Origin: Clostridiales bacterium PH28_bin88
Lineage (GTDB): Bacteria; Bacillota; PH28-bin88
Assembly (NCBI GenBank): GCA_000987045.1
Contig: LAKY01000008.1
Coordinates: forward strand, 44,443 to 108,442
Direction of reading: 5' to 3'
Length of the DNA stretch: 64,000 nt
Below are positions 1-41,776 of this stretch, one piece after another (the first letter of the stretch is position 1; each line of letters begins with the position of its first letter). The translations under genes and the position numbers were made by a program. The notes beneath the pieces are model-generated. The model did no database searches. It saw nothing but the letters and a program-made list of their open reading frames with translations, and was not told the DNA's origin.

Positions 1-28
1 CGCCCATGGCGTCCACCAGTTTCTGATT

Positions 29-7961: not shown

Positions 7962-8626
7962 GACTCATCACCCTTTTCGACTGCAGCCCACAGTTCTTTG
8001 ATATAGCGTTCAGCCGAGGTCTTAGCCCTGGGCAAGCAATCTTCTTGAAGTGAACACTCACGGCACTTCCGGCTTTTTGCTACTGGTGGAGTGACGCCAG
8101 TTCGCAACATTTCATGCAGACTTTCCGCTCCTCTTCTTACCAATTCCCTGAGTTCGGGAGTAAAGGCAACCTCTTTCCGCCGGTGATCTTTTGCATAGTA
8201 GATGAAACCCCTTTTAACCACACATCCAAGCATCTCCTCCAAACAGACGGCCTGAGCACATAGCTGCACTTCGTACTCCAGTTCGTCCCGTACCCGGCCG
8301 TGTTTATATTCCACGGGCACTGTCTCCCAAAGACCCTCCATGCCTTTTACAGGAAAACCTCCGGCGGCCGCATAAAGTTCGATGCTGTCAGCGACACCGA
8401 ACAGGCCCAGGCGTAAGGAGTGAAGGGGAAGGCCCCTCAACCGCACCAGATCCGGGCGCGTTTCCCTGTTGCCCTGATGGACGTGTTGGTGGATGATGGA
8501 GCCTTCCGCTGTATGAACGTTATCGGACCACTGCTGCTCGATGAGCAACAATCCCGCCCGCCTGGGGCAATAATAGTACTGGGACAGGGAGGAAATCGGT
8601 ATCAGGTTATCTTCGGTATAGGTCAT
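7958..8626 (-). CDS. cas4: CRISPR-associated exonuclease Cas4
   Basis: This RecB-family nuclease trims prespacers and helps select PAM-adjacent DNA for Cas1-Cas2. An N-terminal YYCPRR motif and a C-terminal C-x2-C-x5-C group ([11 protein letters not shown]) would hold the Fe-S cluster. PVEYKHGR carries the nuclease Glu-x-Lys. I place the start at 8626, where ATG overlaps the cas7 TGA as ATGA and a GAGGT lies just upstream; an in-frame ATG at 8641 would add five residues and lie inside cas7. Confidence 0.95.
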
Positions 8627-9630: not shown

Positions 9631-9648
9631 AACACACTTCCTCCTTTA

Positions 9649-11391: not shown

Positions 11392-11403
11392 GCGATCACC
11401 TCC

Positions 11404-12108
11404 TTACACTGGTTTTTTCACCATTTCACTTTCCCAGGGCGGGACTTCCAGGACGCCGTCCACCAGTTGGGCTTTGAACAAACTGATTAAAGGAGCAGCG
11501 GTATCGATGACTACTTCGTCGAGATTGAAGACGTCATAGAGCATCCAGCCGATGTCGATGTTTTCTGCCGCGGGTCTGGCTTCCCCCCCGGCCAGGGCGA
11601 AATAGGCGGCGAATTCCCGGCAGCCCAGGTAAGGCTGGTAAAAACACTTGCCCTTGCTGATGCGCCTTTGGGCCTGTTCTTCCAGGGCTTTTAGTCTTCC
11701 TTCAAAACCGGGCCGGGGCTGGATGTGAGCGTGTATCCGGTAGTGGACGTCTTTTAGGGCGATGGTTTGCCTCTGGGTACGGCCTTTGGCATCGGTACCA
11801 GAGAGTTCTCTGGTGGCATCAACAACAATGGGTTCGAATTCCCCGCCATTACGGGCAGCAGCCAGGGCAGCCCTTTCGCTGATCTTGTCCTTCACTTCAT
11901 TTCGCCGCAGGGCGATAAACTGGATGGGCTTCAGCACCTCAATCTTTTCCACTCGCCAGGAAAACTCCAGGGGTTTGGCATGGATGGCATCCAGAATGCC
12001 CCTGGCGGCGGAAGGGGTCATCACCGGGTAACTCAGTCTTTCCACTTTTGCTTCAGGTCTGGTGAAGCAGGCAAAATCCCCCCATACTTCTACTACAAAT
12101 GTGTGCAA
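11404..12108 (-). CDS. cas5c: Type I-C pre-crRNA endonuclease Cas5c (Cas5d)
   Basis: Type I-C systems lack Cas6, and Cas5c cleaves the pre-crRNA and caps the 5' handle. The VEVWGD and ACFTRPEAKVERLSYPV segments near the N-terminus are characteristic of the family. I favour a TTG start at 12108 because AAAGGAGGG lies seven bases upstream and the protein then begins (M)HTFVVEVWGD. An upstream GTG at 12129 overlaps the cas3 stop and would add seven residues. The gene is followed 13 bp later by cas8c. Confidence 0.95.
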   Translation of the reverse strand: MHTFVVEVWGDFACFTRPEAKVERLSYPVMTPSAARGILDAIHAKPLEFSWRVEKIEVLKPIQFIALRRNEVKDKISERAALAAARNGGEFEPIVVDATRELSGTDAKGRTQRQTIALKDVHYRIHAHIQPRPGFEGRLKALEEQAQRRISKGKCFYQPYLGCREFAAYFALAGGEARPAAENIDIGWMLYDVFNLDEVVIDTAAPLISLFKAQLVDGVLEVPPWESEMVKKPV

Positions 12109-12125
12109 CTCTCTCTTCCCTCCTT

Positions 12126-14369
12126 TCACGCGAAATAGGTTCCGCCGGTTTCCTTGAGATCCAGGCCGGTTTCCGGGGAATAGGCCTCAGGCTTGAGCAA
12201 AAGGTACCACCCCGTGGTTTTATCATGACGGTCACGGACAGGCTCCAGTAAACCCCAGATATCGCTGTGACGGTTGGCCCGGTGACCCACCCCCAAGAGC
12301 CGGGCACGTTTAAGCCAGTCCCTGCTGAAACCGCCATTTCTGGCCAGCTCGCAAAGTTCCTGGTAGGTTTGCAGTTCCGGTTCATAGGGCACCAGGATGT
12401 TGACGGAGTTATCGGGTATCCACCGGTAGTGCCGGGCGATGCTGTCAAAGTTAAAAGCCTGGATGGCCTCAGCCAGTTCCTTGTCTTCAAAGTGAGCCAA
12501 ATCATTATGAAAGTAGCGCCGGTAATACTCCTTGATGGTTTCCGGATCACCGATGTCCAAGTATTTTTCCATCAGCATCATCTGTACTTCCACTGCCGCC
12601 TTCTGGTAGGCCCGGTCCGGGTATTGTTCATCTTCACGGGGCGGCCGGAATACGGTTACCTCACCGAAGGGAAGGCCCCCTTCCCGGTTGCATCGCCCGG
12701 CGGCCTGGCAGATGGCTTCCAGGGGAGCCAATGCCCGCCAGACAGCAGGGAAATCCAGGTCTACCCCCGCCTCCACGCACTGGGTGGAGATCAGGCGGCA
12801 GGCTCGGGGTTCCCGTTCTGCATCCCGCCGCAAGCGCTCTTTTACATCTGCGATCACGGCCACCCGGTGGGCGGGACACATATCCGTGGAAAGATGGTAG
12901 ACGTCCTCAGGACCACTATGGTCTTTGACCTGCTGGTAGAGCTTTTTGGCCTGTTTCCTGGTATTTACTATGGCCAGCACCTGGCGTCTGGAAGCCAGTT
13001 CTCCCGCTACTTGATCCCAGGGCAGATGACCCTGCCACCGGACTTCGACTTTCCGGGTACGCTGGAACAGGTTCAATCCGGGAGGGATCAGTTCCCGGGG
13101 CTGCCAGCCGTTAGCAGCATACCTTTTTACTTCTGAATCGAAAGTTTCAAAGGCAGGCTGCGTCGCGGTAGAAAAGACGACGGAACAGCCAAAACGTTGA
13201 ACAAGCTGCGCCATGGCCGCCAGAGTATATACCGTCAGACCGGGTGGCATGGATTGGGCTTCGTCGAAGAGAATAATCGAGTTGCTGATATTGTGGAGGC
13301 GACGGCAGGGGCTGGAACGGTGAGCAAAGAGTCCTTCGAAAAAGCGGACAGTAGTTGTAACGATGATGGGGGCATCCCAGTTTTCCGCCAGGAGGCGCTG
13401 CTCTTCGGGCAGCTCCGATAGACTGTGGTCCTCCAGTACCAGGGGCTTGTCTCCAAGTGAATTAAAGACACGCTGGTAAACGCGGGCGTTCTGTTCAATG
13501 ATATTCAGGTAAGGCATGACAATGATGACGCGGCGAAGATTGTGCTGAGCTGCGTGTCTTAAGGCGAAGGCCAGCATGGACAGGGTTTTACCGGCGCCGG
13601 TAGGCGCAGTCAGGGTGTACACCCCGCGGGGCTTTTCCCCGCCCATGAGGCAGGCTTGAAACAGGTCGTCCCGTAAAGAGCGCATCTCCTGGTGAGCAGA
13701 AGATGTTTTTCTTACATGCTCCATGTGTTCCAGGAGCGCCGATAGCAGCATGTCAGGTTCCAGTTTCTCCCCCGGAGGCCGGTATATGTACTCCGCTCCC
13801 TCGCTCGCGAAATGGGCTTCAGTGGCAAGAAAGTCCGCATCCACCAGGGCCGAAAAAAGCATCCGGACATAGAGCATAGCGGCAATGCGGCGGTTGTTAC
13901 GATAATCATCAGGATAGTCACTGCTGATTTCAGCGGGAGGTTTGAGCCTATCTTCCTTCAGGTAAGCTAAAAGGGCATTCACGTCACGGGATGAAAAAGT
14001 CTTGCCTGATGAAGAGATGGGCTCCTTCATCGAAACCGCAACATTCAATTCCCTGGGGTACCCGCTCTGCAAGCCATCATGGTGTCCCTGTACAGCCACG
14101 GCTGCCGCCAGGCCTTGATTTCCATATTTTTTGAGAAGAGCCAAAGCTCCGGGCGTGGCATGGTCTATGTTGATGGCCTCTCTGTCCAGAACCTGCCGGA
14201 ATAGATCTGTGTATTTCCCGAGATCATGCAGTAACCCCGCCGCTTCCCCTTCTTCTCCCCGACCCCAGGCGGAGACAAACCGGCGGGCCAGAACGGCCGT
14301 TTCGCGAAGGTGGTCGGCTACCGTTTCTTTTCTTCCGCCTTTATTCTGTGAATGAGCGTAAAAAACCAA
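12126..14369 (-). CDS. cas3: CRISPR-associated helicase-nuclease Cas3
   Basis: The 747-residue effector is recruited to R-loops by Cascade and degrades target DNA. The HD nuclease domain comes first (His20 and HDLGK at 48-52), then the superfamily 2 helicase with Walker A APTGAGKT near 260, a DEAQ box in ILFDEAQSMP, motif V STQCVEAGVDLDF and motif VI AAGRCNREG. It starts with TTG at 14369, eight bases after AGGAGG. It is the first gene of the cas operon; the A/T-rich DNA at 14371-14450 is the likely promoter region. Confidence 0.97.
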   Translation of the reverse strand: MVFYAHSQNKGGRKETVADHLRETAVLARRFVSAWGRGEEGEAAGLLHDLGKYTDLFRQVLDREAINIDHATPGALALLKKYGNQGLAAAVAVQGHHDGLQSGYPRELNVAVSMKEPISSSGKTFSSRDVNALLAYLKEDRLKPPAEISSDYPDDYRNNRRIAAMLYVRMLFSALVDADFLATEAHFASEGAEYIYRPPGEKLEPDMLLSALLEHMEHVRKTSSAHQEMRSLRDDLFQACLMGGEKPRGVYTLTAPTGAGKTLSMLAFALRHAAQHNLRRVIIVMPYLNIIEQNARVYQRVFNSLGDKPLVLEDHSLSELPEEQRLLAENWDAPIIVTTTVRFFEGLFAHRSSPCRRLHNISNSIILFDEAQSMPPGLTVYTLAAMAQLVQRFGCSVVFSTATQPAFETFDSEVKRYAANGWQPRELIPPGLNLFQRTRKVEVRWQGHLPWDQVAGELASRRQVLAIVNTRKQAKKLYQQVKDHSGPEDVYHLSTDMCPAHRVAVIADVKERLRRDAEREPRACRLISTQCVEAGVDLDFPAVWRALAPLEAICQAAGRCNREGGLPFGEVTVFRPPREDEQYPDRAYQKAAVEVQMMLMEKYLDIGDPETIKEYYRRYFHNDLAHFEDKELAEAIQAFNFDSIARHYRWIPDNSVNILVPYEPELQTYQELCELARNGGFSRDWLKRARLLGVGHRANRHSDIWGLLEPVRDRHDKTTGWYLLLKPEAYSPETGLDLKETGGTYFA

Positions 14370-17360: not shown

Positions 17361-17386
17361 TACTGGAGCCCATAACCGGGATTGAA
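17361..17386 (-). repeat. tRNA-Thr 3'-end fragment
   Basis: These 26 bases are identical to 41698-41723, the 3' end of the intact tRNA-Thr gene plus three bases beyond it, covering the encoded CCA, the 3' acceptor strand and part of the T-arm. After 17386 the match breaks down (ACGGAAACCTCC against CCGGTGACCTCC). It is not a functional tRNA. See the finding on a possible integration scar with 27643-27670. Confidence 0.75.
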
Positions 17387-17424
17387 ACGGAAACCTCCTT
17401 AAAAGTTAATTCCCCGAAAGCCTT

Positions 17425-27642: not shown

Positions 27643-27670
27643 AACCGGGATTGAACCGGTGACCTCCGCC
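27643..27670 (-). repeat. tRNA-Thr internal fragment
   Basis: These 28 bases are identical to 41711-41738 of the intact tRNA-Thr gene, from the T-arm to the anticodon stem. No further tRNA sequence follows on either side. It overlaps the fragment at 17361-17386 in a 13-bp core, AACCGGGATTGAA. Confidence 0.75.
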
Positions 27671-28051: not shown

Positions 28052-28816
28052 TTATTTCCCTCTAGGGCGAAAATAGAAAATATTGAATAACCGGTCTGAA
28101 GGATAGGTTGTAAATGCAAGAGATTTTCGGCCTAGCTTGCTAGCTATATAGTTTGCTAAAAAAGTTTTACCTTCGCTGGCCTCAGGTTTCATTTGCATCT
28201 CATGCCAATGATAGCCTACTGCACCCATCAGGATATCTGCCAACTGAATTAACCGGCGTTCTTTTGCAGGACGGCTCTGGATACTGGCAACTGGTCCTGT
28301 TGGCAAGGTATACCCACTTTCTCTGATAACCCAGTGATTGAGAGCGTTTTTTAAATCTGTTAACCTGGCAAACTCTTGTACGGGGTTGATTTTTTTTGCC
28401 ACATCTCTATAGGCAAGCCTAATGTGATATTTTTCTTTCCAATCGAGTTTTCGGAAGATCAGCTGGAAGTATAACTTGTAAAAACCTTCTTCAGGATCCC
28501 CGTGGTTAATGATTTTATGATCTATGTCATATGCCGGATCCACCACTATAGCGCAGAAGAACATGTGGCCCCTTTGGTTGTAAGAAAAGTAAAGGTCTAT
28601 TAGTTCTGTATAGAACGGCATGTACTTTGACGTGGGTTTCGTGGGAACATTGCCCCATTTCATATGTGCTGGCAATACTCCAACGGCTTCTCTACAAATA
28701 TGGTGAAAGTCATTAACAAAATTCCATCCTTGATCCGCTTTGATCCAGATGCCGCCAAGCACTCGATATTTATATTGCGTTATTCTGCTCTCGTCGCAAT
28801 AAATCTTAGTGCTCAT
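28052..28816 (-). CDS. DUF3800 domain protein
   Basis: The 254-residue protein opens MSTKIYCDESRITQYKYRVL, the DUF3800 pattern with the acidic YCDES motif of an RNase-H-like fold, and has RLIQLADILMGAVGYHW (conserved QLADxxxG) near the C-terminus. DUF3800 proteins are frequent in defence islands and on mobile elements; the biochemical role is unproven. It follows the helicase gene by 171 bp on the same strand, so it may be an accessory or an unrelated passenger. Confidence 0.85.
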   Translation of the reverse strand: MSTKIYCDESRITQYKYRVLGGIWIKADQGWNFVNDFHHICREAVGVLPAHMKWGNVPTKPTSKYMPFYTELIDLYFSYNQRGHMFFCAIVVDPAYDIDHKIINHGDPEEGFYKLYFQLIFRKLDWKEKYHIRLAYRDVAKKINPVQEFARLTDLKNALNHWVIRESGYTLPTGPVASIQSRPAKERRLIQLADILMGAVGYHWHEMQMKPEASEGKTFLANYIASKLGRKSLAFTTYPSDRLFNIFYFRPRGK

Positions 28817-28987: not shown

Positions 28988-31900
28988 CTAATGCACCTGC
29001 CGCCGTCTGGTTTCCGCTTCGCGCTGCAGGCGCGCTAAAACCGTATCGGCACGGAGCTCGCTCTTTTTTGCCTTCATGCTGTCCGCCAGGCGGCTGGCGG
29101 CGTCCATAGCGGCCCGGGCCAAAACCCGGGGCGCTGACAAGCTGGCTGTGTCGCCCACAGTGGGCACCTGGCACTCGAACAGCAAGTCCCCGGTGACGGG
29201 CCTGAGGGCGTCCGCCGGGAGGTCGGGCACATAAATCTCCTTACTCCGGTCAAACAGGGATTCCACCTCCCGGAGGGCTGGCCAGAAAAGCGCCCCGGCC
29301 CCGGCAGAACGCGCCCTTACTTCAAGGAGATTCCGGATTACCAGAAAGTTAAGCATCTCCTGCGCCCGGGCGGCGCGGATATTTTCGCGTTCGATGCGGT
29401 CTGCCGCGAGGTAAGGTTCGAATTCCACCCTGGCTATCCGTGCTAGTTCTTGTCGTAGCGGCTCGATTTCCGCCTCCGCAAGGGACTCTTCTTCCACGAG
29501 GTGGAGTTCCTTCAGGTCATTCCACCCCCGGACCAACCGGACCTCGCGCATGCCGCCTGCCCCACGGCAGGCCGCCGCATAACCTACCACCTCAACACCA
29601 TCCATGCCGGCAACAGGGACGACGATCCGCCGCACGCACGGGGGAAGCTCGAAACCGCTGAAGTGTGCCAAAACGGCCTCGAAAAACGGGTCACCATACG
29701 AGGCAAAATGCACGCGAACACCACCATCCGCCAGACCTTCCTCATAAAGCTCGCGCGAAACGGTAAGTACTGCTCCATCCAGGACACCATCGATGCCGGA
29801 CACGGTCAGCGTTGGCTTCCCGGGCTCTGCCGACGCGACACACCCGAGGTTGCGCAGGTACCGCGACCCGCTCAAGGCCTCCCATATCGCCGGCAGGTCT
29901 ACCGGCGCAGGATGCCGGTCCACCTCCCGGGCCATCCGCATGTAGATCTCGTAAAGCCCCCTGGGGTCTATTTCCATGCTCTCTGTCTGCCTGCGTTTCT
30001 GCTCGATCTTTTCCCGGGCGCGTGTCTCCAGCGCTTCGGGGGTGAGCGTTCCTTCGGCCAGTTGCCGGAAGTCCTCCGGTTCTACCGGAAGAAGAGAGAT
30101 CTGCTGGGTACCCACCACCAGGTTTGCTTCGTCTAGGCGGGAAAGCAGGCGCCCGTACACGATCTCCTCGGCACTGTCGACATAGCAGAGATTAAGCACA
30201 TAGATGTTTTCGTGTTTCTGTCCAATACGGTCAATACGCCCGATCCGCTGTTCAACTTTCATTGGGTTCCAGCCGAGGTCAAAATTAATGAGCAGGTCAG
30301 CGGTCTGCAGGTTCAAGCCTTCTGCCGCTGCGTCGGTGCACACCAGCACGTCGATCTCACCCCGCAGGAACCGCTCCTTTACCTCTTCGCGGTCTACGGG
30401 TATCATCCGGGCGGTACCCGGGTCGAAGTATTCGGCGCCCTGCCCTGAATAGGTGCCGATGCGCATCCACAGGTCGGCCTGGCGCAGCCGGGAAACCAGA
30501 TCCTTTAAGGTATCGTAGAAACGGGTAAAGATAACCGTCTGGCGGATGCCCCTGGTTTGGCGGTCCCGGCGCTGGTCCAGCGTATTCAACAACACCTGCA
30601 TCTTCGACGGGAGTTCGGTCAGGTCGGCCATGCTTTCGATCATGCCCTTCAGGCGGCCCCGCTCCCATTCCAGGTCAGCCGTGGTCCGGTTCTTGAGCAG
30701 GGATTCGGCGGCCACCAGGTCGTCTTCGTCCTCACCTTCATAGACCGATTCTTGCAGCGAGGAGACTCCTGCTTCATCCGCCTCCAGGACGAGCTGGTGC
30801 CGGAGCGTGGCTTCGACCTTGTACAGGCGGCGCTGCAGCGTCTCGCGCAGCGCGTAGAGGCTGGACGCGAACCGAAGCCGCAGGAAACTCAGCAGGAAAC
30901 TCACCATTTGCTGCGCCTGGTGGTCTCCATGGCTACGGGTTTGCTTGGTCAGACAATCGCAGTATTGCTCCAGTTCCTCATAGATACGCCGCTCCAGTGG
31001 CGTGAAGACAATGCGGTGCAAGGGGTAGATATGGCGCCGGGCGAGGTTTTGCTGCAACTGCCCGTGCTCGCGGTAGATTTCCAGCAGCCGCCGGGTATGC
31101 CGAAGCATCACCCGTGACAGCGGGGACACACTGAAAAACAAGCGGACCATCAGTTCGCGGTCTCTGCCCCTGGGTATCCACCCGTGCTCCAGCCACTGGC
31201 GAAAGGCTGTCCGGATGCGCCCGTCGAGCACGCTCTCCTCAATAAAGCTCCAGAGCATGGGGTCCTGCACTTGAACTGACTGCACAGCGCGTCGTAAAAA
31301 TTTCCATTCCTGCTCTCCTAGTTCTTCCCTGTGAACCAGCTTGCCAAGAATTTCATAATATTGCGATGTCAATGTTGGATCAAACTGGAACGCACCCACG
31401 CGGTTGGTCAGCGACAGCAGGTCACACACTTCCACCGGGTGGATCTGCATGGGTGTAGCGGTGGCCAGCCACAGGCTGCGCGCTTTTTTACGCAGGTAAT
31501 CATGGACGGAGGTGTAGAGATTTCCAAAATCCGGGTGCGCCCCGGAGCCATCCGCGGGATTCCGCCGCCGGACAGCATGGGCTTCATCCACCAGCGCGAT
31601 GTCGAAGGGCTTTGCGCCGGACAGTGCCTCCGCCCGCTCTCGGCGGGCGAGCAGCCCGGTGGACATGATCACCAGATCCGGCTCGTAAATGGAGGTCGCC
31701 GGACGATTTTCTTCGAAGGGAAAGATATACTCAAGAACGGTCTCCGGAGTGGTGCGCGCCAAACCGAAGGAAAGCAACATCTTGGAAGCCATTTGGCGGT
31801 GCCACTGCCTGGTGAGGCTCGCCGGGGCGGCAATCAGGATACGCTTTGCCAGGCCCGACAGGTACAAGGAGCGAAAGGCGAGCCCCGCCTCGATGGTCTT

Positions 31901-32896
31901 CCCGAGGCCCACCTCGTCGCACAACAGGTAGGAGTATGGCCAGGTTTCCACCAGCCTGCGTACAACGATGGCCTGGTGCGGCCACGGTGTGACGGGCGCG
32001 GTCTCCAGTCCCACGAACCGGCCACCCGGCATTCTGGGGGCGTCGCGTAAGATGGCGAAACGCAACCGTTCCAGGGCCGAAGGCGGTTCCGCTACCCTGG
32101 GTGCGGCACTGGCGCCGTCCACCTCCACCGGAAAGTCGATTCCCTCAGCCAACCGGATCAGGCGGCGCCTGACCGCCTCCGGCAGGGTCATCACCGGCAT
32201 GTGGGGGACCCGGCCCATCCACAGGTTTTCAAAGGCTTCTGCGGCTTCGTCCACCCGCCGGCGGTCCGTCTCTCCCCACCAGTCGCAGTGGATATCTACA
32301 TTCTCGGCGTTCAGGATCAGCGCCGTTTTGGATTCGTTGAGCGTCCCTGCCCCGTAGAGCCGGTGGCCAAATTCATCGTGCAAGACAAACCACTTTTCGT
32401 GCACATAGCCATCATCCAAGGCATCCAAAAGGAGAGGCTCGCCGGTCTCCCGGTGGACCCGGAAGGCCACCCGTACCTCAAGGTAGCCGACTGCCACCAT
32501 CCACGCGAGGAGCGTGACGCCGTTTCGCACCCCCTCAGGCCAGGAATCTGGCCGGTCCAGCTCACCATTCAACCTCGCCGCCAGCCGATCCTGGTCCCCG
32601 GCCAGGATGGCCCGCACGTCCCCAGGTTCCAGGTCTGCGCCGACGATCAGACGCATCTTCCCCTGCCGGCTGACAAAGGTTGAAAATCCCATTGAGGCGG
32701 CAGCCAGGGAGGACGAGCGGAAGTACCCTGCCACCCGGTCGTACCGCACCGCCAGGCGGAGAGCGGGCACATAGAAATCATGCAGCATGTCGACGGGACG
32801 GCCGTCGATCATGGTAGCAGATGTCTTGTAGGACAGGAGCCAGCGGCGGGACCGCAGGCCCTTGTCTTCTGAAGAAGCTCCCATTAGTTCCGTCAT
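28988..32896 (-). CDS. PLD-domain SNF2/DEAH helicase of a defence operon
   Basis: The 1302-residue protein starts with a phospholipase-D-like nuclease domain (VHEKWFVLHDE with HxK, then GAGTLNESKTAL, about 163-195). A SNF2-type superfamily 2 helicase follows: Walker A DEVGLGKTIEAG near 330, DEAH box ALVDEAHAVRR near 435, LATATPMQ, and motif VI VEQRIGRIDRIGQKH near 887. The C-terminal 300 residues are less distinctive. It lies 33 bp after the DUF1156 methyltransferase. The pairing suggests it attacks DNA that lacks the methyltransferase's mark. Confidence 0.9.
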   Translation of the reverse strand: MTELMGASSEDKGLRSRRWLLSYKTSATMIDGRPVDMLHDFYVPALRLAVRYDRVAGYFRSSSLAAASMGFSTFVSRQGKMRLIVGADLEPGDVRAILAGDQDRLAARLNGELDRPDSWPEGVRNGVTLLAWMVAVGYLEVRVAFRVHRETGEPLLLDALDDGYVHEKWFVLHDEFGHRLYGAGTLNESKTALILNAENVDIHCDWWGETDRRRVDEAAEAFENLWMGRVPHMPVMTLPEAVRRRLIRLAEGIDFPVEVDGASAAPRVAEPPSALERLRFAILRDAPRMPGGRFVGLETAPVTPWPHQAIVVRRLVETWPYSYLLCDEVGLGKTIEAGLAFRSLYLSGLAKRILIAAPASLTRQWHRQMASKMLLSFGLARTTPETVLEYIFPFEENRPATSIYEPDLVIMSTGLLARRERAEALSGAKPFDIALVDEAHAVRRRNPADGSGAHPDFGNLYTSVHDYLRKKARSLWLATATPMQIHPVEVCDLLSLTNRVGAFQFDPTLTSQYYEILGKLVHREELGEQEWKFLRRAVQSVQVQDPMLWSFIEESVLDGRIRTAFRQWLEHGWIPRGRDRELMVRLFFSVSPLSRVMLRHTRRLLEIYREHGQLQQNLARRHIYPLHRIVFTPLERRIYEELEQYCDCLTKQTRSHGDHQAQQMVSFLLSFLRLRFASSLYALRETLQRRLYKVEATLRHQLVLEADEAGVSSLQESVYEGEDEDDLVAAESLLKNRTTADLEWERGRLKGMIESMADLTELPSKMQVLLNTLDQRRDRQTRGIRQTVIFTRFYDTLKDLVSRLRQADLWMRIGTYSGQGAEYFDPGTARMIPVDREEVKERFLRGEIDVLVCTDAAAEGLNLQTADLLINFDLGWNPMKVEQRIGRIDRIGQKHENIYVLNLCYVDSAEEIVYGRLLSRLDEANLVVGTQQISLLPVEPEDFRQLAEGTLTPEALETRAREKIEQKRRQTESMEIDPRGLYEIYMRMAREVDRHPAPVDLPAIWEALSGSRYLRNLGCVASAEPGKPTLTVSGIDGVLDGAVLTVSRELYEEGLADGGVRVHFASYGDPFFEAVLAHFSGFELPPCVRRIVVPVAGMDGVEVVGYAAACRGAGGMREVRLVRGWNDLKELHLVEEESLAEAEIEPLRQELARIARVEFEPYLAADRIERENIRAARAQEMLNFLVIRNLLEVRARSAGAGALFWPALREVESLFDRSKEIYVPDLPADALRPVTGDLLFECQVPTVGDTASLSAPRVLARAAMDAASRLADSMKAKKSELRADTVLARLQREAETRRRQVH

Positions 32897-32929
32897 GCTA
32901 TCCCCTCACGAACACTAGCTACTTTGGGC

Positions 32930-35900
32930 TCACTTGAGGCCGAACAGGATCGCCCCGGCCTCCTGGCGCAACTTTTCGTCGGCCATCTCCGCGGCCCAGA
33001 CAGAGAGCAGATCGAGGATCACCTGTTCCCGCGCTTGCGCGTGCTGCGCCAGGTAAGCGCGGGCAACAGGCGCATCGCCCTCCCGGTAAGCAAGGATCAG
33101 ACCATGCAGGATGTCCCATTCGGTCTGTGGATTCTCTACGCGTTTCTTGTTGCGCTCCTCCGGCAGGGCCAGGCGCAGCTTGGACCCACGGCGGACAAGC
33201 GGCGCGTGGTAGCCGGTGTCCCCGGCGCTGGAGCGCCCGGTGCGCCCGCCCCGGCTTTCGTCGTTAATGCCGATCATCCGGCCGTTTACCGTGTACCCGG
33301 CTGCCCTGCCCTCCAGGCTGATACTGAGTGAGCGGGAGAGGTTCAACGCCTCATCGTAAGGGAACTCGGCCAGCCCGAAAATGCCGAAGAGCGTCAGGGC
33401 CATGGCGGCTTCAGGATTGAGGTCGTCCACCTGCAGGCGCCCCTGCGTCAGGCGGGCGACCTGGTGTTGAGCCACCACAGCGCTGGCCTCGTTCATGGCG
33501 CGGATGGGGCTGACCGGATCGTCGCCGTCCAGCACCGGCCAGTGTTCCGAGAGCACCCGCAGCGCCCGGCCGTAACTGGCTACCATTTCGTCCACTGCAT
33601 TTAATTGGAGCGGCTCGAACTCTTTCAGGCCCTCGCGTACCGCCTCGCGCACCCGCTGGGCCACACCTGTGCCACCGAAACCGGTCCAGGTCGCCGGTGT
33701 ACTATCTTTAACTTCCCGCTTACGACAGGTCAGGAAGATTGAACTGGCAGCAGCGGCCATATCCTTCTGGTGCATTGACGCGGCCGACTCGGACTCTACA
33801 GGCATGGAAGACGTGATCGTCCAACCGTTCTCGATCAAGGAGCGTGTCAGCGCTTCCCAAGCTTCCTGGGTTTTATGGGTAAACATGATGGTCATGATGC
33901 CATCGTCTTTAAGGACACGGCGGCACTCGGCGAAAATTTCGCCCATCAGGCGCTCGTACTCCTTAGCTGCTCTGGCAGCAGAGCCGTCCCTGGCCGGGTT
34001 AGCCACCGCCTCGTCGTTTTTATCAGTAAGCCGCCGCCTGAACAAGTCAGGGTAGAGGTCATGGAGAGTACGGCGCTGCCACACGTAGAAGTAGTCGGCC
34101 AGCTCCGCGTACTGCACGTTGTTGTAATAGGGAGGATCTATACAAACCAGGTCGACCAAACGGTCGGGTAAATCCAAGTGGGCGGCCGTGCCGCAGCGGA
34201 TGTTCACAGGGGGAGCAGCACCCTGGAGCTTTTTCTGTAGCGGCGCCATCAATTCCGCCATCCCTGCGTACGCGTCCGATACCTGTGAAAGACCCCAGGC
34301 CGCACCTGAATTAGGGCCTGTGAAAATCATCTCGCCAAATGTCCATTTCAGTGAAAAGTCATGACGTCCAAAGGTTCCTTTCACAATACCCCTTGTATAT
34401 TCCCAGCGAGTTTGCTTGCTGTTATAATCCAGTCCTTTATCTATCACAAACTGGAGATACGTCACCACGGCGCGGCCGCGTTCCTCACCGAGCTCCCGGA
34501 GGATGTCGGGCTTGAGGCGGTTGATCTCCTCTACCAGGATGAGGTGCCCCAGGAGTTGGCGCGGGGTGAACATATCGCACCAGCGAGTCATGCCGTGGAT
34601 AACCGGACGCATGTCGTTGCCCTCTGGGAAGCTTTCGGTCGGGATGAACCCCTGCCGTTCCCACTCAGGCCAACGCTGTTGGAGGCGCTGCTCAGCCTCA
34701 GCCAGGGCCTGGAGGTCGCGGTGGTTGGGCGGCCGGAAGAAGCGCACCTTGTCGGTCTTGATCTCCCCGGCCCGTTCACCGCTTTTGTACCGTTCGGGTC
34801 TGCCGTGCCTGTCCAGCTTGGGCTGATAACGCACGGCCGCCACGCAGTAAAGCCGGTCCTGCCACCGGCCGTGGGGCGATTCGCCCCGGGCCTGAGCCTT
34901 GATCTCGTCGGCGGGAATGGCCTGGCGGCAGTGGACACACGTGCCGACGCCGCCGCTGACCGTGGCAAAATCTGGGTCTTCGCCGTTCGGGCCCCGGCTG
35001 CCCTTGACGCGATAAGTCTCAAACCGCACCTTTCCGCCTTTCGATCGGCCGTCAGTGACGATCCGCACGCCCCACTTGTCACCTTCTTTTGACAGCCAGC
35101 AGGTGTTTAGAAGCGGCGCCTCCCCGCCGCAATGCGGGCAGGTCACCTGGCGAGCGTACAAGTAGGTGGTCGTATCTTCGCGGTCGTACTCTGCAATCAG
35201 GTCCGGACACTTTCTCAGATGCGCCTCCAGAACCCGTCTCTCGTCCTGCGGTAAAGGGAAAACTCGGGGGAATACAGCATCTAGCTTGTTGTCCAAGACG
35301 TCAATCAGCTGCTGCCCCCATTTCTCGATATCGTCCTTTAACTCCAGGCCATAACGGGCAGGATAGTCGAGGGTAGCGTACAGAATCACGGCCGCAACCG
35401 GATTCAGCTCATTTGCAATCACTCGGTGCCCAAGTCGCAACGCTTCGAAGGGAATTGAACCCCCACCGGCCGTGGGATCAAGCACCGTAATTTCACGGGA
35501 TCGCCATTCCGGTTGGTGTATGTAGGCGCGTGAATACCCGTAAAGGTTCGGAACACGGACACCCACGCTTGACGCAATCTCCATCAAGCCTTTGAACCAG
35601 ACAGGATCAGCAGCTACGCGTTCAACATATAAGATCTCGCCTTCGCTGGGTAGCGGCTCAGGAAGCGGTTTACTCAGCTCTCTCCATTTTTGGATGACGG
35701 GATGGTCCTCGAGAGGAGGAGTCTTTACGGTAATCTCTTTAATCAACTTCCCGTGCTCTTTCCTAGTGTCCTGCTCCCGTTGAAGCGCCCTCGCAACCAC
35801 GGAGTCTACTTCTAATATTTCCCGTCCCGAAGCATCCTGGCCGATACGATCAAGTAGCTTGTCTTCCAAGATCCACGGTTCCCCGTTGACCAGTGCCTGC

Positions 35901-36142
35901 ACCTTTTCAATGCCCAGTTGGCGGAGGAACCAGTCCGGATCGGTTCCGGCGGGCAGGAGCGAGCCGAGGATGGCGGCGCGGCTCGGCGTTAGCGGCCGCC
36001 GCGCCCACCAGACGTGAAGGAAATAGAGAGGAGGGAGGGCGGAACTCGCACCTCGCTCCCGCTGGGTCTCGGCACCGACCTGGTGGCAGGGAAAGCCCGC
36101 TTCGATCAGGCGGACGTCAGTCCTGATTTTGCTGTCCTGCAT
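32930..36142 (-). CDS. DUF1156 DNA methyltransferase
   Basis: The 1070-residue protein begins with a DUF1156 domain (RLIEAGFPCHQVGAETQRER, then LHVWWARRPLTPSRAA). It holds an N6-adenine/N4-cytosine methyltransferase core with SAM motif DPTAGGGSIPFEALRLG near 226 and catalytic motif IV DPPYYNNVQYAE near 671. A zinc-ribbon-like insertion has CPHCGG and CVHCRQ pairs at about 335-420. The order (FGG-like motif before DPPY) suggests a gamma or beta class. It probably modifies host DNA in the defence operon, between the DUF7680 and helicase genes. Confidence 0.9.
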   Translation of the reverse strand: MQDSKIRTDVRLIEAGFPCHQVGAETQRERGASSALPPLYFLHVWWARRPLTPSRAAILGSLLPAGTDPDWFLRQLGIEKVQALVNGEPWILEDKLLDRIGQDASGREILEVDSVVARALQREQDTRKEHGKLIKEITVKTPPLEDHPVIQKWRELSKPLPEPLPSEGEILYVERVAADPVWFKGLMEIASSVGVRVPNLYGYSRAYIHQPEWRSREITVLDPTAGGGSIPFEALRLGHRVIANELNPVAAVILYATLDYPARYGLELKDDIEKWGQQLIDVLDNKLDAVFPRVFPLPQDERRVLEAHLRKCPDLIAEYDREDTTTYLYARQVTCPHCGGEAPLLNTCWLSKEGDKWGVRIVTDGRSKGGKVRFETYRVKGSRGPNGEDPDFATVSGGVGTCVHCRQAIPADEIKAQARGESPHGRWQDRLYCVAAVRYQPKLDRHGRPERYKSGERAGEIKTDKVRFFRPPNHRDLQALAEAEQRLQQRWPEWERQGFIPTESFPEGNDMRPVIHGMTRWCDMFTPRQLLGHLILVEEINRLKPDILRELGEERGRAVVTYLQFVIDKGLDYNSKQTRWEYTRGIVKGTFGRHDFSLKWTFGEMIFTGPNSGAAWGLSQVSDAYAGMAELMAPLQKKLQGAAPPVNIRCGTAAHLDLPDRLVDLVCIDPPYYNNVQYAELADYFYVWQRRTLHDLYPDLFRRRLTDKNDEAVANPARDGSAARAAKEYERLMGEIFAECRRVLKDDGIMTIMFTHKTQEAWEALTRSLIENGWTITSSMPVESESAASMHQKDMAAAASSIFLTCRKREVKDSTPATWTGFGGTGVAQRVREAVREGLKEFEPLQLNAVDEMVASYGRALRVLSEHWPVLDGDDPVSPIRAMNEASAVVAQHQVARLTQGRLQVDDLNPEAAMALTLFGIFGLAEFPYDEALNLSRSLSISLEGRAAGYTVNGRMIGINDESRGGRTGRSSAGDTGYHAPLVRRGSKLRLALPEERNKKRVENPQTEWDILHGLILAYREGDAPVARAYLAQHAQAREQVILDLLSVWAAEMADEKLRQEAGAILFGLK

Positions 36143-36155
36143 AATATAATCGCCC

Positions 36156-36767
36156 CTATCTACGCAACTTCTCCAGCATGTGCAGGATCGCCGGGTCCCC
36201 GGGCTGGCCGCCCAGCATGATGCGCATGCCGGCTAAAGCCCAGCGGTTGGCCGCCTCCCCGTACTGGGTTACCCGCGTCAGCCAGTACGCGGCTTCTTCG
36301 CGGCTGAAACGCGCCACGCGCCAGGCGATCAACTCAACCCGGTCCATTTCCTTTACTCTTTCCTGCAGTTTGAATATGAGTGACAGTTTTACGCCCGCCT
36401 CCTCGTCCATGGGCAGGTTTCCCCTGAAAGCAATGCGCCCATTACCGAGGAACCGCTGCAGGTCCAGCGGGATCCCGGCGTCATCGCATACGCTGCCGGT
36501 AATTGTGCGGATTACGGGCAAACAGCGGCGCAGGGACTGGCCATACAGCAGCCCCCGGTCTCTAAGAACTGTCTTCCCCACAGCCTTACCGTTTTTCTGC
36601 TGGTCCTCCTCGGGCGAAGACCGTTCCTTGACCACAAAGACCGGTACAGGTTTGTCCTTGTATTCGGTAACCCGCAGGACCCAAGAAGCCCGCTCCAAAA
36701 GAGGCCGGATGCGTTGCTGGAAATCTCGCTCTAGATCCCAATCGGTGGTAGCCTTCTGGTTTGTCAT
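36156..36767 (-). CDS. DUF7680-like protein of the defence operon
   Basis: This roughly 204-residue protein (MTNQKATTDWDLERDFQQRI start) matches what I know as the DUF7680 family that accompanies DUF499 and DUF1156 genes; the family name is from memory. Its middle is mixed alpha/beta, and it ends with a helical region containing ARFSREEAAYWLTRVTQYG. I pick the ATG at 36767 preceded by GAGGG over that at 36782. It is 13 bp before the methyltransferase and 28 bp after the ATPase gene. Its role is unknown. Confidence 0.75.
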   Translation of the reverse strand: MTNQKATTDWDLERDFQQRIRPLLERASWVLRVTEYKDKPVPVFVVKERSSPEEDQQKNGKAVGKTVLRDRGLLYGQSLRRCLPVIRTITGSVCDDAGIPLDLQRFLGNGRIAFRGNLPMDEEAGVKLSLIFKLQERVKEMDRVELIAWRVARFSREEAAYWLTRVTQYGEAANRWALAGMRIMLGGQPGDPAILHMLEKLRR

Positions 36768-36795
36768 TTGCATCCCTCGCATTATACGCTACATA

Positions 36796-39700
36796 TTATT
36801 TGTTTCTGAGTTCCTGGATGAACGGGCAGTCGTCAGCGGGATCAAGTATTTCGAGGAAAGCCTCCGTATGCTCTTCTTGCGATGCAACGCCATCCAATAC
36901 CTCGAATAGCTCACCCAGCGCCTTCATGGATCCCGGGGTAACACTGGTGAGCTGGATGCGGATGCTGCCACCCTCCGGGAGCTTGAGGTCCACCAGGTCC
37001 ATGCTGTCAATGGTGGACTTGGCGCCCCGGTTATAGATGCCCCCCAACCGCCGCAGCAGCGGGAGCAGCTTCTCAGCCCCTTCTTTGCCCCCGAGGGTAA
37101 GTCCGCGGCGACCGGCGGTGACCCACCCCAGCTCGGCCGCCTTGGCCGGCGAGACCAGTACATCGCCAGACTGGGGGGTGTAAAGGGCGGCGCCGGCCCC
37201 ATGGATGAGATCAGGTTTTTCCTGCTGGTCCGGCGTACCATGGTAGGCAAACAGGCGGCCATTCTTGACAAGCGTCACTACGGCTTCCTGGAAATCCTTG
37301 GGCGGAATCTCTCCGTATTGCTCGGCCAGGTTGTCCGATACCTCGCGCACCGTAGCAACCCCACTCCGGCCAATCACATAGATGAGGCCGTCACGCACCT
37401 TAACCGGATCGACCGTATGGGTTTTGGTCCAACCGCGCTGGTTCGCACCCTGCACGGTAACCAGGCTGTATCCCGTCCCGGACAGGTTGACCCCCATGGG
37501 GATGTCGTTCTCCCGGTGGTAGAACTCTCCCGGTTTCACGCTATCCACAGCACCCATGCGGAAGGCGCACCATACACCTTTCTGGACCCCGGCTCTGATA
37601 ATTTGCTCCAAAATTCCGGGCGTCTCCAGCACCGGCCAACTGCGTACGCAGGAGAAGTGCTGGCGTAGTTTTTCCAGGGTGACGGTGTCGCCGTGCTCAA
37701 AGAAGAGTTTGCTCAAGTTCAAAAGGTCCGCCTGGGTAGTGTTGTTGCTGGTAAGAAGCTTGCCGTCCTTGAGCAAGGTCTCACGGATTTGCTCGATAAA
37801 GGGCAGCCCGCCCTCGCCACCGGCTGTCTTGATCTCCTTCCGGACGATATGCCCCGCTGTGGAAGGGTAATACAGGCCCGTATAGATGCTTGAAACGGCG
37901 GTAAGCAATGCCTGCTCGCGCTCAGTTTTACGTTTGCGGAAATCCGCGTCCTCCAGCCGGCGGGGATTGACACCGTAGCTCTGTGGCTTTTCAATCAAGA
38001 CGCGCATGGCCTCAACCTGACGGGCGATACTCTCGATGCGCTGCCGGGCGTCTTGCGCCTGGCCCTGGAGGAGCTTCTCCAATTCGTTCGTTCCTTTTAC
38101 AGTGGCGGTTTCGGGAACAAGTAGAAAGATGATGTTCTGTTGCTCCCTGGGCTTATTCACACCCCTGGTGGTCACCACGGCCTCTACATCGACGCTTTCG
38201 GCGGTCAGTGAAACAACTCCCAGCACAGGCCTCCCCTTGCCGTCGGGTAAATGCTCCGGTAAGGAAACATCGTGTTCTATGTGGAAAAGGTCAGTTTTTC
38301 CGGTTACCACCTTGCGTGCCGTTGCCTCGAGCAGGCTGTTGACCTGGTCTGACTTTAAAGTCCTGCGGATCCTGGCGAGGACGCTGTTAATAGTCGGCTC
38401 TTCGCTGGCAAAGTATTTGCCCTGCTCGTACCGGAGGTAAAAGGCGCTTTCATTGATCTCCTCAATGGCCGTGCGCACCTGTGGCGGCGTGAGACCGGGA
38501 AAAGACACACAAAACAGCGCTTCCGGCTCGGTAAGGCCGAAGATTTTGGAATCCAGGCCCTCCTCGCGGCCCACCAGGCTGTGCAGAAAGATAGTCTTCC
38601 AGGTATACTCGTAAAGAGGATGGCCCTCCGGGTGCGGGTTCTTCTGGTCGGCAAGTTCCGCGTTGCTGCGGCCGCCCTCGAGGGCGCCGGTATCGACGCT
38701 GCCTACATCGGCGTTAAGGACGAGTAGCAGGTCTGAACTGCCTGTGCGGCCAAGGATCTCATTGACCACACGATCCGAGCGCAGGTCCAGGTGACAGTCG
38801 TGGATCATGGGCATGTCCTGCTGTTTCAGCCACAGGCTGCGCACAGCCAGGGCCAGCACCCGGAGTACGCCGCGCGTGCCCTGGAAGTTCTCAGCGTTAG
38901 CAAGCTTCTTATTAAGGAAGTCCACCAGAGTCGGGTGAAACGGGTAGTTGGCGATCATCCGGCCCTTGAAATCCTCGCTGGCAGCCTCGTCCGGCAGCAT
39001 GTTGGCGTTCCGGCGGTACATCTGCATGTATTCCTCAGCGGCGGCTCTGGCAGCATCGCGGTTTACGGATAAGAACAGCCGCTTGGCAAGTACGGATGAG
39101 ATCTCGGCGGCGTGTACCGGCGTAATCTGGACGGCGTCACGGGCCACCACGCTGGCCACGCCCCTTACGGCTTTTTCGCCAATCCCCAGAGCGTCGTCTT
39201 CGCTCACCTCTTCGCCTCGCACCTGGGCAATGAGTTTCGCCAAAAGCTCCGTTTGTCTGGCAAAGGCATCCGTTGCGCTGGCCAGTGTGAGGATGACCGC
39301 AATCCCAGGATGGTTACGGGCATAACCGTGCAGCCCCATGAGAAAGGCAGCGAGCTGGCTCGCCCCATCGGGCCGAGCCGCTTCAAGCCGCGCCGCGTAT
39401 TGCGCCAGCTCATCCAGCATGATGATGGCCTTTCGCCCTCCCAGCACCCTTTCAAAATACGTTTTGCCGGGCGCGGCATAGGAGTTGGCCTCGTCTTCCA
39501 CTTCACGGTAAAGGCTCTCTCCACCGATTTGATAGGCAATCTCACCCCAGAGGGTATAGGGCACCAGCGCATTACCTTTAGGCTTATGCACCGGAATCTC
39601 GTCGCCCGCCACGCCGACGACAGCGACTGAACCGGGCTCCGAGAGAAGCTTCGGGTCAAGAATGTTTTGTACGATGTCACGCAGTTCCGTACCTCTATAG

Positions 39701-40014
39701 GCGATGTGGGTACAGGCGATCAGCGTGTGGGTCTTACCGCCTCCAAAAGCTGTTTCCAACCGGTGGATAGCTGGGACTGTCATGTCACCCGCGACCCGGC
39801 CAAAAACTTCCGACAGAGTCAACCGGAGACCCTGAGTCGGGTAGGTGGCTTCACGGAAAAAGAGTTCCGCGTTGGTGTAAATGCTGTCGATGACACCCCG
39901 ACCGGTATGGTAATATTCGATGATCGGGCTGAGCGACGCCGTGAAGACCTCAGGGTTAAAAGTACCTGCCAGGATCTCGGGTCGCGGCTGGCATGTGTCT
40001 CGTACCGATTTCAC
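36796..40014 (-). CDS. DUF499 AAA-like ATPase of the defence operon
   Basis: The 1072-residue protein is a DUF499 ATPase: PEVFTASLSPIIEYYHTGRG, then ETAFGGGKTHTLIA (Walker A near 90) and AIIMLDELAQYAARLE (Walker B near 195). The C-terminal half includes helical and winged-helix-like stretches ending in a DUF499-type tail. It follows the AbrB-like gene by 17 bp. In comparable systems the ATPase is thought to couple recognition to the helicase and methyltransferase, which is inference here. Confidence 0.88.
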   Translation of the reverse strand: MKSVRDTCQPRPEILAGTFNPEVFTASLSPIIEYYHTGRGVIDSIYTNAELFFREATYPTQGLRLTLSEVFGRVAGDMTVPAIHRLETAFGGGKTHTLIACTHIAYRGTELRDIVQNILDPKLLSEPGSVAVVGVAGDEIPVHKPKGNALVPYTLWGEIAYQIGGESLYREVEDEANSYAAPGKTYFERVLGGRKAIIMLDELAQYAARLEAARPDGASQLAAFLMGLHGYARNHPGIAVILTLASATDAFARQTELLAKLIAQVRGEEVSEDDALGIGEKAVRGVASVVARDAVQITPVHAAEISSVLAKRLFLSVNRDAARAAAEEYMQMYRRNANMLPDEAASEDFKGRMIANYPFHPTLVDFLNKKLANAENFQGTRGVLRVLALAVRSLWLKQQDMPMIHDCHLDLRSDRVVNEILGRTGSSDLLLVLNADVGSVDTGALEGGRSNAELADQKNPHPEGHPLYEYTWKTIFLHSLVGREEGLDSKIFGLTEPEALFCVSFPGLTPPQVRTAIEEINESAFYLRYEQGKYFASEEPTINSVLARIRRTLKSDQVNSLLEATARKVVTGKTDLFHIEHDVSLPEHLPDGKGRPVLGVVSLTAESVDVEAVVTTRGVNKPREQQNIIFLLVPETATVKGTNELEKLLQGQAQDARQRIESIARQVEAMRVLIEKPQSYGVNPRRLEDADFRKRKTEREQALLTAVSSIYTGLYYPSTAGHIVRKEIKTAGGEGGLPFIEQIRETLLKDGKLLTSNNTTQADLLNLSKLFFEHGDTVTLEKLRQHFSCVRSWPVLETPGILEQIIRAGVQKGVWCAFRMGAVDSVKPGEFYHRENDIPMGVNLSGTGYSLVTVQGANQRGWTKTHTVDPVKVRDGLIYVIGRSGVATVREVSDNLAEQYGEIPPKDFQEAVVTLVKNGRLFAYHGTPDQQEKPDLIHGAGAALYTPQSGDVLVSPAKAAELGWVTAGRRGLTLGGKEGAEKLLPLLRRLGGIYNRGAKSTIDSMDLVDLKLPEGGSIRIQLTSVTPGSMKALGELFEVLDGVASQEEHTEAFLEILDPADDCPFIQELRNK

Positions 40015-40031
40015 AGTTCATCCTCCTGTTC

Positions 40032-40259
40032 TCATCCCCTAGCCAAAGACGTGGGAACTGTGCCTATTTCCCGGTCTGGGCTCTGGTCGTTTTTCTTGCC
40101 CGCGGCAACAATTATTGCCTTCTCCAAAACAACCCTGCCACCCGGCTCCAATTTAAGCAAAACCCGGTCACCCTCGTCTAATTCAAGAGCAGCCCGAATT
40201 TCCTTTGGCAATGTCATCTGACCTTTTGGTCCTACTTTAGGCGTATAAAGTTTGGCCAA
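40032..40259 (-). CDS. AbrB/SpoVT-like regulator heading the defence operon
   Basis: About 75 residues with the swapped-hairpin AbrB/MazE DNA-binding pattern: YTPKVGPKGQMTLPKEIRAA, then LDEGDRVLLKLEPGGRVVLE. The start is probably TTG at 40259 (AGGTG six bases upstream), though GTG 40268 is possible. It lies 17 bp before the ATPase gene. An AATTGG/CCAATT repeat cluster upstream could be its operator, which would make it the operon's autorepressor. Confidence 0.8.
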   Translation of the reverse strand: MAKLYTPKVGPKGQMTLPKEIRAALELDEGDRVLLKLEPGGRVVLEKAIIVAAGKKNDQSPDREIGTVPTSLARG

Positions 40260-40268
40260 ATAAATCAC

Positions 40269-40658: not shown

Positions 40659-41000
40659 TTACATCCTGTATTCGGTGGTTTCCGGCTGGGTCAAGATGTC
40701 TCGCAAGAAGCTGGCTGGGGAAAGTTTATGCAAATCAATTTCTTCGGGTGTATAGCCCCTGGCCTCTACCGGCTCCATAATCCTGGCTGCCGCCCGGCCA
40801 AGGATTTCCGCCCGTTCCCGCAGATTCAGACCGGCAAAATCATTCGAAATGATCAACAAGTCAATGTCACTGTCATCACTGGCCGTACCTTTAGCCTGGG
40901 AACCAAAGAGCAATGCCCTCTGTACACGTATCCCGAACTGGCCGAGAACGTTAAGGTACGAAGCTATTACTTCTTTAAGTTCTCGTTGTTTCTTAGCCAT
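40659..41000 (-). CDS. MNT-type nucleotidyltransferase antitoxin
   Basis: This 113-residue minimal nucleotidyltransferase shows LLFGSQAKGTASDDSDIDLL, the GS-x-DxD active site. In HEPN/MNT pairs such as HepT/MntA, the MNT protein AMPylates and silences the HEPN ribonuclease. Its start lies inside the HEPN gene (34-bp overlap), typical of these pairs. Confidence 0.85.
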   Translation of the reverse strand: MAKKQRELKEVIASYLNVLGQFGIRVQRALLFGSQAKGTASDDSDIDLLIISNDFAGLNLRERAEILGRAAARIMEPVEARGYTPEEIDLHKLSPASFLRDILTQPETTEYRM

Positions 41001-41359
41001 TCTATCACCTGCTCCGCACGTTTGAGATACTGATTCGCCACCAACCTGGGATAGGCAGCTATCAGGTTGTTAAGGTCTTCCGGGTATCTGATAGTCCCGG
41101 CAACAGAGTTTAACTCTCCGATGAACAGCCTCATTTCTTCTGGTGGTTCTACACCCGCCAAATCAACAAGACGAATGAGGTTATGGATTTTTGGAGGAGA
41201 CTGGCCCATTATCTCGCTTACCAATGCTTTCAGCGTCTTCTCTACCGCCAGGTGCGCGAAGTAAATTGTGTAGACGTACCGCTTTACGCGAAACATGCTA
41301 CGGGCAGTCGCGAGATCGTAATCGGCAGATGCTAGCCAGTTCTCGGTTTCTGGATTCAC
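40967..41359 (-). CDS. HEPN-domain protein of a HEPN/MNT pair
   Basis: The 130-residue helical protein (NWLASADYDLATARSMF, then YFAHLAVEKTLKAL) belongs to the PF05168-type HEPN family. A canonical RNase R-x4-6-H motif is not visible; the closest Arg-His pair is R-x8-H. It may therefore be a non-canonical toxin or a substrate-binding HEPN. It is the first gene of the pair, next to the defence operon but separated from it by about 390 bp. Confidence 0.8.
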   Translation of the reverse strand: MNPETENWLASADYDLATARSMFRVKRYVYTIYFAHLAVEKTLKALVSEIMGQSPPKIHNLIRLVDLAGVEPPEEMRLFIGELNSVAGTIRYPEDLNNLIAAYPRLVANQYLKRAEQVIEWLRNNENLKK

Positions 41360-41700: not shown

Positions 41701-41776
41701 TGGAGCCCATAACCGGGATTGAACCGGTGACCTCCGCCTTACCAAGGCGACGCTCTACCTACTGAGCTATATGGGC
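41701..41776 (-). tRNA. tRNA-Thr (GGT)
   Basis: A full cloverleaf of 76 nt: acceptor GCCCATA/TATGGGC, D-stem GCTC/GAGC, anticodon loop TTGGTAA with GGT at 34-36, T-loop TTCAATC and encoded CCA. Fragments of the same gene recur at 17361 and 27643. Confidence 0.96.

Follow-up and report, generated by a model that had tools for sequence, protein, structure and literature searches.

A DUF7680-marked, DUF499-centred operon as a probable BREX-related phage-defence system in Clostridiales bacterium PH28_bin88

Introduction

What kind of system is encoded by an operon that places a small protein of the family DUF7680 between a DUF499 ATPase and a DNA methyltransferase, and what could this small protein do there? 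The operon lies in a 64,000-nucleotide stretch of DNA from Clostridiales bacterium PH28_bin88 (GenBank assembly GCA_000987045.1, contig LAKY01000008.1, positions 44,443 to 108,442), which was analysed as a whole and is called the window here. The initial annotation had described it as a helicase-methylase-ATPase (Hma)-like defence operon with an AbrB-like head gene, and its assignment to defence, as well as the helicase, methylase and ATPase composition, was correct. We consider it fairly probable that the operon is a DUF499-centred, restriction-modification-like phage-defence system related to BREX (bacteriophage exclusion), with an HKD helicase, that it belongs to a lineage marked by DUF7680, and that DUF7680 is its coupling subunit. 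This lineage of probable phage-defence operons is not named in the available surveys of such systems.

Results

Architecture of the operon

The five genes, in window coordinates, are:

40032-40268, minus strand: AbrB/MazE-type DNA-binding head gene, 78 amino acids (aa) (PF04014, 6e-12; TIGR01439, 7e-13)
36796-40014, minus strand: DUF499 AAA+ ATPase, BrxC/ORC-Cdc6 like, 1072 aa, GTG start (Pfam DUF499, 2e-30; DUF7744 at the C-terminus, 4e-42)
36156-36782, minus strand: DUF7680 slot protein, 208 aa (PF24728, 1e-38)
32930-36142, minus strand: DUF1156 DNA methyltransferase, predicted N6-adenine, 1070 aa (DUF1156, 9e-14; N6_N4_Mtase, 4e-9)
28988-32896, minus strand: HKD(PLD)-SNF2 helicase, 1302 aa (Pfam SNF2 and Helicase_C; PADLOC PLD_Helicase)

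All five open reading frames (ORFs) are present, intact and tightly packed on the same strand. From the AbrB-like gene to the helicase, the intergenic gaps measure only 17, 13, 13 and 33 bp, which makes a single transcription unit likely; promoter-like sites (12, expected 6.4) and terminator-like sites (19, expected 14.9) were given no weight. The ORFs are not chance products, since lengths above 1000 aa, strong family matches and a gene order recurring in dozens of loci speak for them.

The motifs of the core proteins are intact. The DUF499 ATPase carries Walker A (GGGKTH, residue 91) and Walker B (AIIMLDEL, residue 196), the methyltransferase DPPY at residue 669 and DPTAGGG at residue 222, and DUF7680 the conserved EE-A-x-Y-W and R-x-x-L. 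The N-terminus of the helicase is occupied by the HKD nuclease (HEK at residue 166, and GTLNES), to which Pfam makes no PLD/HKD call in the window helicase; PADLOC PLD_Helicase aligns from residue 38. The fusion of this nuclease to the helicase had been singled out as worth study: it is there, but it had already been noted in PMC7641849 and PMC12839542. The helicase core follows with Walker A DEVGLGKT at 327, DEAH at 437 and QRIGRIDRIGQ at 883. From motif VI to the end, the C-terminal tail spans 420 residues, compared with about 115 in systems that carry another small protein, DUF3780, and these 420 residues gave no Pfam nuclease match. A sequence search of the PDB returned RapA for the helicase and no match for the DUF499 ATPase or the methyltransferase; a weak match of DUF7680 to Synaptonemal complex protein 3 was taken as chance.

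Placement between Hma and DUF3780 systems

To place the operon, PADLOC scores were read against two yardsticks. A true Hma-order locus (L113) scores 1752, 1189 and 1112 bits on HmaA, HmaB and HmaC, and a true DUF3780 locus (L044) scores 819, 952 and 663 bits on PLD_Helicase, DUF1156_MTase and DUF499, with 166 on DUF3780. The window reaches 168, 221 and 225 bits on the first set and 204, 131 and 130 on the second, so that true members lie at 660-1750 bits on the large-protein models, against 130-225 for the window on either set. By these yardsticks, the operon is neither of the Hma nor of the DUF3780 type but related to both, and it falls between them, matching each model set weakly. The label "Hma-like" therefore holds for the composition but not for the type, from which scores, gene order, slot gene and HKD all set the operon apart. 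On the NCBIfam set for DUF3780-type systems, the methyltransferase and the helicase of the window score 211-300 bits against cut-offs of 1000-1100, and its DUF499 ATPase 178 against 1200; L044 itself passes two of these four cut-offs and comes near on a third. PF12635 (DUF3780) has no match anywhere in the assembly, and DUF7680 fills the slot.

That the operon is a plain Hma (Type-1 BREX-related) system with an extra gene appears very unlikely to us. HmaB and HmaC do score above the DUF3780-type DUF1156 and DUF499 models (221 vs 131 and 225 vs 130 bits), but a true Hma locus attains 1112-1752 bits, its gene order is the reverse, and Hma-order loci have neither the slot gene nor the HKD domain.

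Gene order and distribution

The search covered 300 genomes of the phylum as delimited by the search tool, the relatives with a name being Moorella, Desulfofundulus and other Clostridia. DUF499 is present in 44 of these genomes, and DUF7680 and DUF3780 in 13 each. Gene maps drawn from 20-kb regions show two main arrangements, one running DUF499, slot gene, methyltransferase, helicase, and the other (the Hma order) helicase, methyltransferase, DUF499, without a slot gene. Besides the window, 12 loci of the phylum show the first arrangement with DUF7680 in the slot, insofar as their contigs extend; the identical order surrounds DUF3780 in eight loci. The slot gene is either DUF7680 or DUF3780, never both at one locus, and one genome (G132) holds one locus of each kind. 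The five-gene order noted at the outset is thus conserved across relatives for its four core genes but not for the AbrB head gene.

Furthermore, DUF7680 is no peculiarity of this operon but a conserved subunit of a wide lineage, with loci in Clostridia-like Firmicutes, rhizobia, cyanobacteria, Rhodococcus and haloarchaea. On plasmids of the latter four groups, genes in or close to the slot encode DUF7680-like proteins that are annotated "hypothetical protein". One Leptolyngbya plasmid has five genes between the slot gene and the methyltransferase, and a contig of a viral collection (L062) also carries a DUF7680-type locus.

Co-occurrence of the slot protein and the HKD domain

The two arrangements differ in their helicases as well. 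A hidden Markov model (HMM) of the HKD domain matched 35 of 35 helicases of slot-gene loci (23 DUF7680, 12 DUF3780) and 0 of 15 helicases of slot-less loci; the slot-gene loci had also supplied the sequences for this HMM. Independently of it, PADLOC HmaA aligns to the helicase of the Hma-order yardstick from residue 1 onwards, and the match of PLD_Helicase is confined to the core of that protein. The pattern HxK...G[ST]xN[EA][ST] is conserved in all 35 aligned helicases. This strict co-occurrence is the main reason for proposing a joint action of slot protein and HKD helicase.

Relationship of DUF7680 and DUF3780

Profile comparison and structure prediction make it likely that DUF7680 and DUF3780 are homologous. 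When 29 DUF7680 and 20 DUF3780 sequences were compared by hhalign, 145 columns aligned colinearly (score 29.8, P 0.001, probability 21%). The core columns scored 24.1, compared with a mean of 12.7 (standard deviation 2.3, maximum 23.3) over 400 column shuffles and 14.8 for the reversed profile. The match needed deeper and more diverse sets, as shallow profiles of 12 DUF7680 and 8 DUF3780 sequences gave a probability of 0.4%.

The AlphaFold2 model of DUF7680 (predicted local distance difference test, pLDDT, 85.5; predicted template modelling score, pTM, 0.83) has strands at 34-39, 48-55 and 72-80, a helix at 81-95, a strand at 121-125, and C-terminal helices at 127-139, 146-157, 161-172, 176-191 and 198-207. 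In the DUF3780 model (pLDDT 75.2, pTM 0.71), strands at 30-35, 42-48 and 60-67, a helix at 68-88 and a strand at 99-104 are followed by helices at 105-119, 123-135, 138-149 and 161-171. Both families thus share the predicted element order bbb-a-b-aaaa. At positions paired by a sequence alignment made without structure, the two predictions give the same secondary structure for 84% (of 76) and 75% (of 174), whereas shifted registers average 51% and 43% (maxima 67% and 57%). A helix with EE-x-x-[YW]-W is common to both families. According to a 2026 survey, which identified no definitive homologues of DUF3780, this protein folds into a sheet of four strands with five helices (PMC12839542); DUF7680 is not named in the main text of that survey, and a literature search for it returned no paper.

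Alternatively, the operon could be a divergent Type-2 BREX-related system in which an unrelated DUF7680 displaced DUF3780 from the slot. The hhalign probability, low in absolute terms, and the N-terminal part of DUF7680, which varies strongly between lineages, would fit such a non-orthologous replacement. It is nevertheless unlikely, as the colinear, full-length profile match exceeds all 400 shuffles, and predicted fold, secondary-structure register and the EE-x-x-[YW]-W helix all match.

Phylogeny of the core proteins

In the methyltransferase tree, the DUF7680 systems lie on one side of a starred branch (97) and the DUF3780 systems on another (100); the Hma-order and other loci stand together on a third side, apart from one long unplaced branch (L128). 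This separate starred branch of the Hma-order loci also speaks against a plain Hma system. In the DUF499 tree, the DUF3780 systems form one clade (100) and the DUF7680 systems need two changes. When the tree was rooted with BrxC, the slot-less loci formed a clade (99), and the approximately unbiased (AU) test rejected neither a single clade of DUF7680 and DUF3780 systems (p-AU 0.56) nor monophyly of the DUF7680 systems (p-AU 0.28). A single origin of the systems with slot gene and HKD is therefore compatible with the trees but not shown by them.

Proposed function

Sequence and structure prediction together support four core genes with their motifs and order, a shared slot and predicted fold, and the co-occurrence of slot protein and HKD. 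For BREX-related systems, a restriction-modification-like mechanism has been proposed, and a Type-1 relative has measured antiphage activity (PMC12839542). In the system proposed here, the methyltransferase would mark sites in the host DNA, and the DUF499 ATPase would assemble on DNA and scan it. At an unmethylated site, the ATPase would recruit and license the HKD-SNF2 helicase, which would translocate along the DNA and cut foreign DNA. DUF7680 may be an obligatory, stoichiometric small subunit linking the HKD helicase to the complex of ATPase and methylase, either as a reader or as a licensing factor. We read it as such because its gene lies between those of the ATPase and the methylase with 13-bp gaps, because its C-terminal helix pair is conserved, and because it is tied to the HKD helicase.

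Several points weigh against this reading. The restriction-modification-like activity of the DUF7680 system is predicted from its relatives, and classical restriction may be the wrong picture, as the related BREX does not simply degrade unmodified DNA but stops phages from replicating. The aspartate position of the HKD domain is not strictly kept, and the DUF7680 systems are not resolved as one clade in the DUF499 tree. As for the homology of the slot proteins, hhalign probabilities stay at 14-21% with a modest E-value, the likeness in fold is one of element order and secondary structure between predicted models, and Foldseek found no relatives of the DUF7680 model in BFVD and the PDB.

The operon could also act in a modification-dependent, type IV-like manner, attacking modified phage DNA, with DUF7680 reading modified bases and the methylase serving in signalling or housekeeping. 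According to literature on BREX-related systems, some DUF3780 proteins carry fused modified-base readers (ASCH/PUA, RAMA), and archaeal operons of this kind are associated with EVE domain proteins (PMC12839542, PMC7641849), both of which would suit this explanation. In the complete loci checked, among them the Moorella thermoacetica locus L029, where a broken gene had been suspected, the methyltransferase is intact, and none of the loci examined has a reader domain fused to DUF7680. We therefore regard a type IV-like mode as quite unlikely and retain restriction-modification-like defence as the preferred reading.

Neighbouring genes and genomic setting

The surroundings of the operon in the window include:

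40967-41359, minus strand: HEPN gene (PF05168, 6e-19)
40659-41000, minus strand: MNT gene (PF01909/PF18765)
28052-28816, minus strand: DUF3800 gene, 254 aa, 171 bp downstream of the operon (PF12686, 4e-9; PADLOC PDC-M04A, 6e-37)
41701-41776, minus strand: tRNA-Thr, start of the operon-bearing interval (ARAGORN)
27643-27670, minus strand: 28 bp identical to the anticodon-stem/T-arm part of tRNA-Thr (blastn, window against itself)

The AbrB head gene, 17 bp before DUF499, is present as annotated and may encode an operon regulator, but the nearest DUF7680 relatives have no AbrB gene. Among the loci examined, a sequence match occurs only in the window and in L111, where the homologue precedes the first gene of a different, Hma-order operon by about 25 bp, and a conserved head gene was rejected. 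The AbrB-like protein is probably an accessory promoter-binding regulator rather than a conserved part. Small upstream ORFs in other loci, ribbon-helix-helix (RHH)- or helix-turn-helix (HTH)-like, have no or sub-threshold Pfam matches.

The HEPN/MNT pair and the DUF3800 gene are located where the initial annotation had put them. As system parts they were rejected, with no sequence match in any relative locus. Judged from its sequence, the HEPN/MNT pair is a separate, type VII toxin-antitoxin-like neighbour and not part of the system. DUF3800 is an accessory neighbour whose membership in the system is uncertain; it may be a recurrent guest, because a DUF3800 gene also lies between the methyltransferase and DUF499 of a slot-less BREX-related operon (L121:10976-11776).

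Toxin-antitoxin genes lodge repeatedly inside or beside such operons. VapC-like genes lie between methyltransferase and helicase in cyanobacterial plasmid loci (L054, L057, L108). In some loci of Firmicutes (L034, L051, L039), a PIN or ParE toxin gene directly precedes DUF499. In another DUF499 operon, a SMODS (CD-NTase-like) gene sits between helicase and methyltransferase (L124:4574-5506), possibly forming a composite of a BREX-related and a CBASS-like system (CBASS, cyclic oligonucleotide-based antiphage signalling system).

The operon lies beside tRNA-Thr, and a partial 3'-end copy of this tRNA is found at 17361-17398. The tRNA-Thr copies flank the defence interval and a neighbouring interval with a tungstate-type ABC transporter. 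Because partial copies lie at the interval borders, the tRNA-Thr site may be an integration hot spot; no integrase was identified. The copy at 27643-27670 is possibly the far boundary of the inserted interval, and the exact element ends are unsure because the boundary copies repeat different parts of the tRNA. Another tRNA-Thr fragment (50 bp, 98%) lies at G000:C57:36534-36573; a second copy of the island on C57 was discarded, as only this fragment is there. The guanine-plus-cytosine fraction over most of the operon is 0.58-0.63, above that of the flanks, and the methyltransferase shares up to 86% identity with a genome of another family, both of which fit horizontal transfer of the operon.

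At 1-6453 and 7958-14369, the window also holds a long CRISPR (clustered regularly interspaced short palindromic repeats) array, whose units measure about 66 bp, and beside it a cas3/cas7 operon that looks like type I-C (Cas3 and Cas7 by Pfam). Further repeats occur in the adjoining 20 kb (L131).

Discussion

The likely link between DUF7680 and DUF3780 would unite two orphan families, which share the conserved positions EE-x-x-[YW]-W and R-x-x-L; the role of DUF3780 had so far been a guess, and the 2026 survey knew no definitive homologues (PMC12839542). The rule that the slot protein is present exactly when the helicase carries HKD predicts a functional dependence. Together, these loci form a broad lineage whose members are likely defence systems and score weakly on current PADLOC and NCBIfam models. 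Their slot gene bears the annotation "hypothetical protein", also in Picosynechococcus sp. PCC 7002, a tractable laboratory strain. Tentatively, and somewhat short of calling it probable, we suggest that DUF7680 and DUF3780 form an ancient family of obligatory licensing subunits. This family would define a superclass of DUF499 systems, those with an HKD helicase, in bacteria and archaea, apart from the slot-less Hma/Type-1 and Type-3 systems, and its DUF7680 lineages would be older, more diverse and unnamed in the three-type scheme.

Comparison with known systems

With Type-3 BREX-related systems and BREX, the operon shares a BrxC-like ATPase, an N6-methyltransferase and an SNF2 helicase. It differs from Type-3 in having no PglZ or iSTAND gene at the locus and no PglZ Pfam match in the operon proteins, and from BREX in that its ATPase is DUF499 rather than DUF6079, with no DUF6079-type BrxC at the locus. 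A weak PglZ match marks L128. Elsewhere in the assembly (4.98 Mb, 6% contamination, possibly more than one strain), BrxC (DUF6079) matches occur on contigs C44, C81 and C55, two of them full length.

Hma, or Type-1 BREX-related, systems (PMC8565338, PMC12839542) likewise combine a DUF499 ATPase, a DUF1156-type methyltransferase and an SNF2 helicase, but Hma-order loci place the helicase first, followed by methylase and ATPase, and lack slot gene and HKD. Their helicase is described with a TUDOR N-terminus and a C-terminal PD-(D/E)XK nuclease (PMC12839542).

The operon differs from Type-2 BREX-related systems (PMC12839542; NCBIfam NF042961-NF042964, "anti-phage-associated") in carrying DUF7680, without a family-level match to DUF3780, which is a standalone gene of the core locus in 98% of described Type-2 taxa (PMC12839542). 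Its helicase has about 300 more C-terminal residues, and its methyltransferase and DUF499 ATPase fall into separate branches outside the DUF3780-system clade, with core proteins below the family cut-offs. It resembles Type-2 in its order of ATPase, slot gene, methyltransferase and helicase, in its DUF499 ATPase, DUF1156 methyltransferase and SNF2 helicase with an N-terminal HKD in place of TUDOR, and in a small alpha+beta slot protein of about 200 aa, whose predicted fold is a four-stranded sheet with five helices.

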